Shown here piece after piece: positions 11,873 to 12,168 of a stretch of 64,000 nt of DNA. Each line of letters starts with the position of its first letter. Positions within the stretch are counted from its first letter, which is position 1. This DNA comes from Pirellula sp. (GTDB lineage Bacteria; Planctomycetota; Planctomycetia; Pirellulales; PNKZ01), in assembly GCA_013822735.1 (NCBI GenBank), contig PNKZ01000001.1, positions 186,001 to 250,000 of the forward strand, written 5' to 3'. Under the pieces are notes generated by a model. That model was not told where the DNA came from. It was given only the letters and a program-made list of their open reading frames with translations, and did no database searches. A program made the position numbers and the translations under genes.

Positions 11873-11934
11873 AAAAAAAAAACTCCCGGAAAGACGGGTC
11901 CCAGGGGGGCGAAGGACGCCGTTCCTTCCGGGAG
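11873..11934 (-). terminator. Rho-independent terminator
   Basis: On the minus strand CTCCCGGAA (11934-11926) pairs perfectly with TTCCGGGAG (11891-11883), with an internal small stem GGCG/CGCC in the loop, followed directly by ten T residues (11882-11873). It ends the candidate small RNA and would also stop read-through from crcB. Confidence 0.88.
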
Positions 11935-12133
11935 CGATTGGACGCCCCACGACACGAGCCACGGTTGCGAAGCGTTTCGCCCGGCCTCCTTGCCGAACGA
12001 CTCGTTCCGTGGTCCGCGATTCGAACGACTTGCGTCGCCCGTTTCGTATGCAGACCCTACCGTGCGGATATCCGTTTCGTGTCGCCCGATTCTCGCAGCG
12101 AGCGACTTGCGTCGTTCGTCGTTTGAATCGTGA
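11873..12133 (-). ncRNA. Candidate free-standing small RNA (~260 nt)
   Basis: On the minus strand a sigma-70-like promoter (12140-12168) and an intrinsic terminator with ten U residues (11873-11934) bracket about 260 nt with no plausible ORF. The RNA contains two copies of the stem-loop CGAC-GCAA-GTCG (12103-12114 and 12026-12037), each with a GNRA tetraloop. The 5' segment 12118-12130 can pair over 12 of 13 positions with 12017-12029, or locally over 6 bp with 12088-12093. A 6-bp stem, 12007-12012 with 11959-11964, closes the next domain. The distal pairing overlaps one GNRA stem, so alternative folds are possible. I cannot match it to tmRNA, RNase P, SRP or 6S RNA. Confidence 0.6.
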
Positions 12134-12139
12134 GGCGGG

Positions 12140-12168
12140 AGAATAGGGAAACGTTTTCCGAGGGTCAA
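12140..12168 (-). promoter_or_regulatory. Sigma-70-type promoter for the candidate small RNA
   Basis: On the minus strand, TTGACC (12168-12163) and TATTCT (12145-12140) are separated by exactly 17 nt. Transcription would start near 12133. It lies downstream of the crcB stop codon at 12266, so it does not serve crcB. Confidence 0.65.

Follow-up and report, generated by a model that had tools for sequence, protein, structure and literature searches.

A widespread, previously uncatalogued small RNA of a planctomycete class with a probable CsrA-binding hairpin

We describe a real, non-coding, structured and independent small RNA that is previously uncatalogued and widespread in a large group of Planctomycetes. 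Judged from its sequence and that of its homologues, it is probably a CsrA-binding regulatory RNA distributed across the class, which suggests a partnership between a small RNA and CsrA in gene regulation that is undescribed for this phylum. The copy studied here lies in a 64,000-nucleotide stretch of a Pirellula genome, hereafter the window, to which all positions refer.

Results

A preliminary description of the locus had proposed an independent small RNA on the minus strand, and this is borne out by its promoter and terminator, by order-wide homologues and by helices that covary in 38 relatives. The proposed promoter, TTGACC-17-TATTCT, is located at 12168-12140(-) and is near-invariant in relatives, being exact or only 1-2 bases off in most of 88 distinct extracted transcripts. 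It appears to be a strong promoter of the sigma-70 type, with a predicted transcription start near 12133. The intrinsic terminator with ten U residues is likewise present (11934-11873(-)) and consists of the stem CUCCCGGAAGG/CUUUCCGGGAG followed by 10 U; both stem and U tract are conserved. The predicted RNA gene, with a promoter and a terminator of its own, thus spans 12133-11873(-). The predicted fold of the minus strand is more stable than those of dinucleotide-shuffled sequences (z = -3.9, 0/200). ORFs of 206 and 138 aa overlap the locus, but coding is not credible, as the preliminary description had held, because homologue lengths differ by non-multiples of 3 within the 3' domain.

A blastn search with the window sequence gave E values of 1e-56 to 1e-77 in congeners and found homologues, nearly always in single copy, in 7/7 genomes of the family and 160/196 Pirellulales genomes; the homologues are not independent samples. 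The covariance model R1, built on the 3' domain, matched 171/297 genomes of the class, as a rule once per genome, including nearly all listed members of the sister family f21 and part of f118. One f21 genome (G652) holds four matches. In a phylum-wide search, the matches beyond the class were weak and mostly short and were excluded from the homologue count; therefore the RNA is treated as limited to the class. In named genomes, a DNA pattern representing the 3' domain matched 115 stretches, and the matches listed come from Planctomycetes, including Blastopirellula marina DSM 3645, Bythopirellula, Botrimarina and Aeoliella, or from bacterial MAGs. The predicted RNA length across the extracted homologues ranges from 73 to 464 nt. 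A full-text search of the open-licence literature found no description of this RNA, and the genome-wide ncRNA surveys consulted do not mention planctomycetes.

The preliminary description could match the RNA to no known housekeeping RNA and had proposed Rfam and covariance searches. At the gathering score, neither the window nor any of 12 homologous loci matched an Rfam family, and relaxed thresholds likewise gave none, with CsrB, CsrC and RsmX/Y/Z absent from the weak matches. Like 6S RNA, the RNA is widespread, single-copy and provided with its own promoter, and its order-wide occurrence could point to a replacement for 6S, or for some other housekeeping RNA, in an order without 6S, which gave no match (RF00013) in the window genome and is also not found in related species (PMC5673643). 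However, it lacks a long bubbled hairpin imitating an open promoter, varies in length as given above and shows no Rfam similarity, RF00013 included; such a role is highly improbable.

Comparison across the order reveals a common arrangement. From the 5' start, a variable hairpin is followed by a self-complementary element (CCACGUGG and others), by the helix P2 (GGGUCUGCA/UGCGGACC) and by P3 (CGAAGCG/CGCUUCG), which surrounds a short hairpin with an ANGGAN loop; a variable linker then leads to an invariant 3' domain. In the window copy, P2 pairs GGUCUGCA (12056-12049) with CGCGGACC (12018-12011) within 12011-12056(-), and 7 of its 8 pairs are changed on both sides among 38 sequences. P3 (11968-12009(-)), also supported by covariation, has the outer stem CGGAACG/CGCUUCG. 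Altogether, 23 of the 29 proposed pairs are changed on both sides in the 38 aligned sequences. The proposed partners pair in 86.9% of cells, compared with 31-47% when the partner is slid by 1-3 columns, a control that somewhat favours the structure since the alignment was structure-blind and the structure was then drawn from it. The observed pairing values were reached by none of 500 shuffles. The two-hairpin internal domain is conserved with strong covariation.

The element just 5' of P2 is CGGAUAUCCG in the window (12065-12074(-)), and it is palindromic in many relatives that differ in sequence. A palindrome of 8-14 nt occurs here in 27 of 63 homologues, against 3.6% at random positions. The palindromes, noted in the window and at the equivalent positions of L007, L026, L027, L031, L034, L043 and L081, have at least 8 different cores (CCACGTGG, CACTAGTG, CATCGATG, CCAATTGG, CACGCGTG, CCCGCGGG, CACCGGTG and CGGATATCCG). 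Such varied palindromes suggest that the RNA may form homodimers.

Both CGAC-GCAA-GTCG stem-loops of the preliminary description are present, at 12114-12103 and 12037-12026. The first belongs to the local 5' hairpin P1 (12087-12130(-)) and the second, in the window copy, to the apical part of P2. These GNRA stem-loops are confined to close relatives and are not a trait of the wider family. The GGGCGACGCAAGTCGTTCGA stem-loop of the window RNA is also part of a congener's RNase P RNA (L009). The 12-mer CGACGCAAGTCG has 10 copies in the window genome (6.9 Mb) and its reversed control none; considered as a dispersed repeat, this number marks a minor recurrent stem-loop and no repeat family.

It had further been proposed that the 5' segment alternates between a distal and a local partner in two mutually exclusive folds. 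The 6-bp local match is present in the window copy, and so is the distal 12-of-13 match, although its coordinates were one base off and are really 12129-12117 with 12027-12015, so both pairings can be drawn there. In the window copy none of 200 shuffles equalled the distal pairing, whereas in the four nearest homologues (L002-L005) the corresponding fractions were 0.20-0.91. The local hairpin P1, in contrast, is kept with changed sequences in all five, and the distal partner strand sits within the region of P2, whose helices covary across the order. Because the distal pairing is unsupported in L002-L005 and the local hairpin is always retained, the apparent switch is most likely a coincidence of the window copy, favoured by the near identity of its two GCAA stem-loops. 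The comparison with relatives thus rejects the two-state fold, and we hold an alternating RNA to be extremely improbable.

The main feature of the RNA had escaped the preliminary description: the hairpin enclosed by P3, UCGUUCGGC-AAGGAG-GCCGGGCGA (11977-12000(-), loop 11991-11986), is of the CsrA type, as indicated by its invariant loop and by its enrichment. In 38/38 aligned sequences the loop A.GGA and the closing C-G pair are invariant, while the stem varies and covaries. A tally of every hexaloop hairpin lying upstream of the 3' domain showed ANGGAN to be the commonest class; the motif had been spotted before counting, and the tally itself was open to every motif. ANGGAN hairpins with stems of at least 3 pairs number 85, about 24-fold more than the 3.6 +/- 1.9 in shuffles (maximum 11 among 100), and only 3 lie on the antisense strand; with at least 5 pairs, there are 33 compared with 0.4 in shuffles. 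A set from named species, which shares species with the first homologue set, gave 2.1 hairpins per kb for the RNA, 0 for its antisense strand and 0.05-0.08 per kb for the flanks, which makes the RNA about 30-fold denser in them than the flanks. Of 86 ANGGAN hairpins, 82 are closed by C-G, and the base at loop position N varies freely (A 32, C 32, T 17, G 5).

SELEX has defined the CsrA site as RUACARGGAUGU, and NMR of RsmE has described an ANGGAN hexaloop (PMC7652899). The hairpin shares the free N and the C-G closing pair with the SELEX/RsmE site, which favours its reading as a CsrA site. A GGA loop could also act as a Shine-Dalgarno mimic; this candidate was rejected, as N may be A, C or T, and CsrA fits better.

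Each RNA carries 0-3 CsrA-type sites, usually 1; a single perfect site is present in the window copy, and many members have one or more additional ANGGAN hairpins, either in their 5' part or within the linker. The homologue of Blastopirellula marina DSM 3645 (L166), predicted at roughly 310 nt, carries two ANGGA hairpins. A high-capacity sponge of the CsrB/RsmZ kind, acting by titration only, would be compatible with the recognition hairpin, with the strong conserved promoter and with the 2-3 sites reached in some members. Nevertheless, E. coli CsrB contains 22 GGA sequences (PMC7652899), and in the planctomycete RNA the 3' domain is better conserved than the CsrA sites. Since there is usually one site, the RNA does not resemble a CsrB-like sponge, and this explanation seems quite unlikely.

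The prospective partner is encoded by the hosts. CsrA was found in 20/20 relatives searched, the copies read retain the conserved VHR motif, and csrA is multi-copy, with 3-14 Pfam matches per genome and 8 in the window genome (own genome and 19 relatives). Hfq was found in 0/20 genomes searched and FliW in 18/20, with no FliW found in the window genome.

The invariant 3' domain (11875-11944(-)), supported by alignment A3 and model R1, comprises the unpaired UCCAAUCG and a long hairpin with an inner GUCC/GGGAC stem, which displays the C-rich loop UUCGCCCCCCU (11913-11903(-)). Its order-wide form is CGUCCAAUCG-CUCCCGGAAA...GUCC-UNNGCCCCCCU-GGGAC...UUUCCGGGAG-U7. The domain is found class-wide and is the one part common to all members. 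The C-rich loop and UCCAAUCG are invariant or nearly so, as is characteristic of a conserved unpaired seed. In the shortest homologues (L120, L123, L124, L126 and L127 of the sister family; 73-115 nt), the 3' domain comes almost immediately after the promoter, and the GGA hairpins are missing, so CsrA binding cannot be the sole function. Because the C-rich terminator loop is invariant and the short members retain only this domain, the RNA seems to have a second activity besides CsrA binding, probably base pairing.

The same observations would also fit an RNA that acts in trans through its C-rich loop alone, with CsrA uninvolved and the GGA hairpin contacting another RNA or protein. However, this leaves unexplained the repeated appearance, at several positions, of A-N-GGA-N loops that are closed by C-G and leave N free. 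Moreover, the 14-nt complement of the C-rich loop was not enriched over the control in 20 genomes, in a simple scan with a single pattern. We therefore consider base pairing without CsrA rather doubtful, and retain a CsrA-binding RNA as the probable reading.

In the window, a crcB-like gene with the same orientation lies upstream of the RNA. No universal neighbour gene was found across the homologous loci examined; the neighbours differ by lineage: the genus has crcB, other families have kdsD-kdsC-like or GGDEF genes, and several families have glgC. The glgC gene is a classical CsrA target that is repressed by CsrA in E. coli. It adjoins the RNA, usually convergently, at about 10 of the first loci in both orders (the sister order included), and in 15 of 115 named-genome loci, a minority arrangement. 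Loci adjoining glgC in several families are L013, L014, L016, L017, L019, L115, L120, L122, L130 and L131, and in L037 a glgC fragment is close to csrA. Since other lineages have other neighbours, the link to glgC is circumstantial and at most an ancestral linkage.

Discussion

In the following scheme, transcription, the binding of CsrA and the direction of control are inferred. The RNA would be transcribed from its own sigma-70-type promoter and end at its intrinsic terminator. Its middle domain would present a stem with the conserved ANGGAN hexaloop, the CsrA recognition element, and in members with a second such hairpin a CsrA dimer could bridge the two sites. The C-rich loop of the terminator hairpin (UCCUNNGCCCCCCU) could pair with G-rich or Shine-Dalgarno-like sites of mRNAs. 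In this putative dual-function RNA of the McaS/SR1 sort, CsrA docked on the GGA hairpin may either be drawn off its mRNAs or help the C-rich loop to act on targets; titration and CsrA-assisted pairing appear about equally likely.

CsrA-antagonist RNAs are held to be gammaproteobacterial, and Planctomycetes are among the phyla that may use FliW (PMC4682653). According to one paper, it is an open question whether FliW and small RNAs act jointly in one species (PMC7652899). In Pirellulales, CsrA and usually FliW occur together with this small RNA, and Hfq is not detectable, so this question becomes directly testable. It is conceivable, if somewhat short of probable, that this is the first CsrA-dedicated small RNA outside Proteobacteria, in hosts that mostly possess FliW, and that it perhaps forms the centre of a system without Hfq, where one CsrA paralogue among several serves as RNA matchmaker. 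In addition, a covariance model now exists for a widespread, unannotated RNA of a poorly studied class.

CsrB/CsrC and RsmX/Y/Z are the CsrA/RsmA-sequestering small RNAs of Gammaproteobacteria. The planctomycete RNA resembles them as an independent small RNA with an intrinsic terminator and with GGA in the ANGGAN hexaloops of short hairpins; ANGGA hairpin loops occur above chance, and the host encodes canonical CsrA. In contrast, it has 1-2 sites and not many, a covarying two-hairpin core and an invariant C-rich 3' domain, and it belongs to another phylum, whose hosts mostly also carry FliW. Membership of the CsrB/RsmZ family is not claimed, because neither many sites per RNA nor Rfam similarity was found when both were tested.

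As in base-pairing small RNAs, the gene has its own promoter and intrinsic terminator. Few CsrA sites together with a probable pairing region recall McaS of E. coli, a base-pairing and CsrA-binding RNA. Pairing of the McaS type depends on Hfq, whereas Hfq was not found in the planctomycete hosts (20 genomes). To our knowledge, no sequence or structural homology links the planctomycete RNA to McaS, and we know of no homology to SR1. In Bacillus subtilis, CsrA promotes the pairing of SR1 with ahrC mRNA (PMC7652899, PMC9029176). The mode proposed here would be similar, with CsrA and not Hfq as the matchmaker. On the best reading of these comparisons, the RNA resembles McaS or SR1 more than a CsrB sponge.
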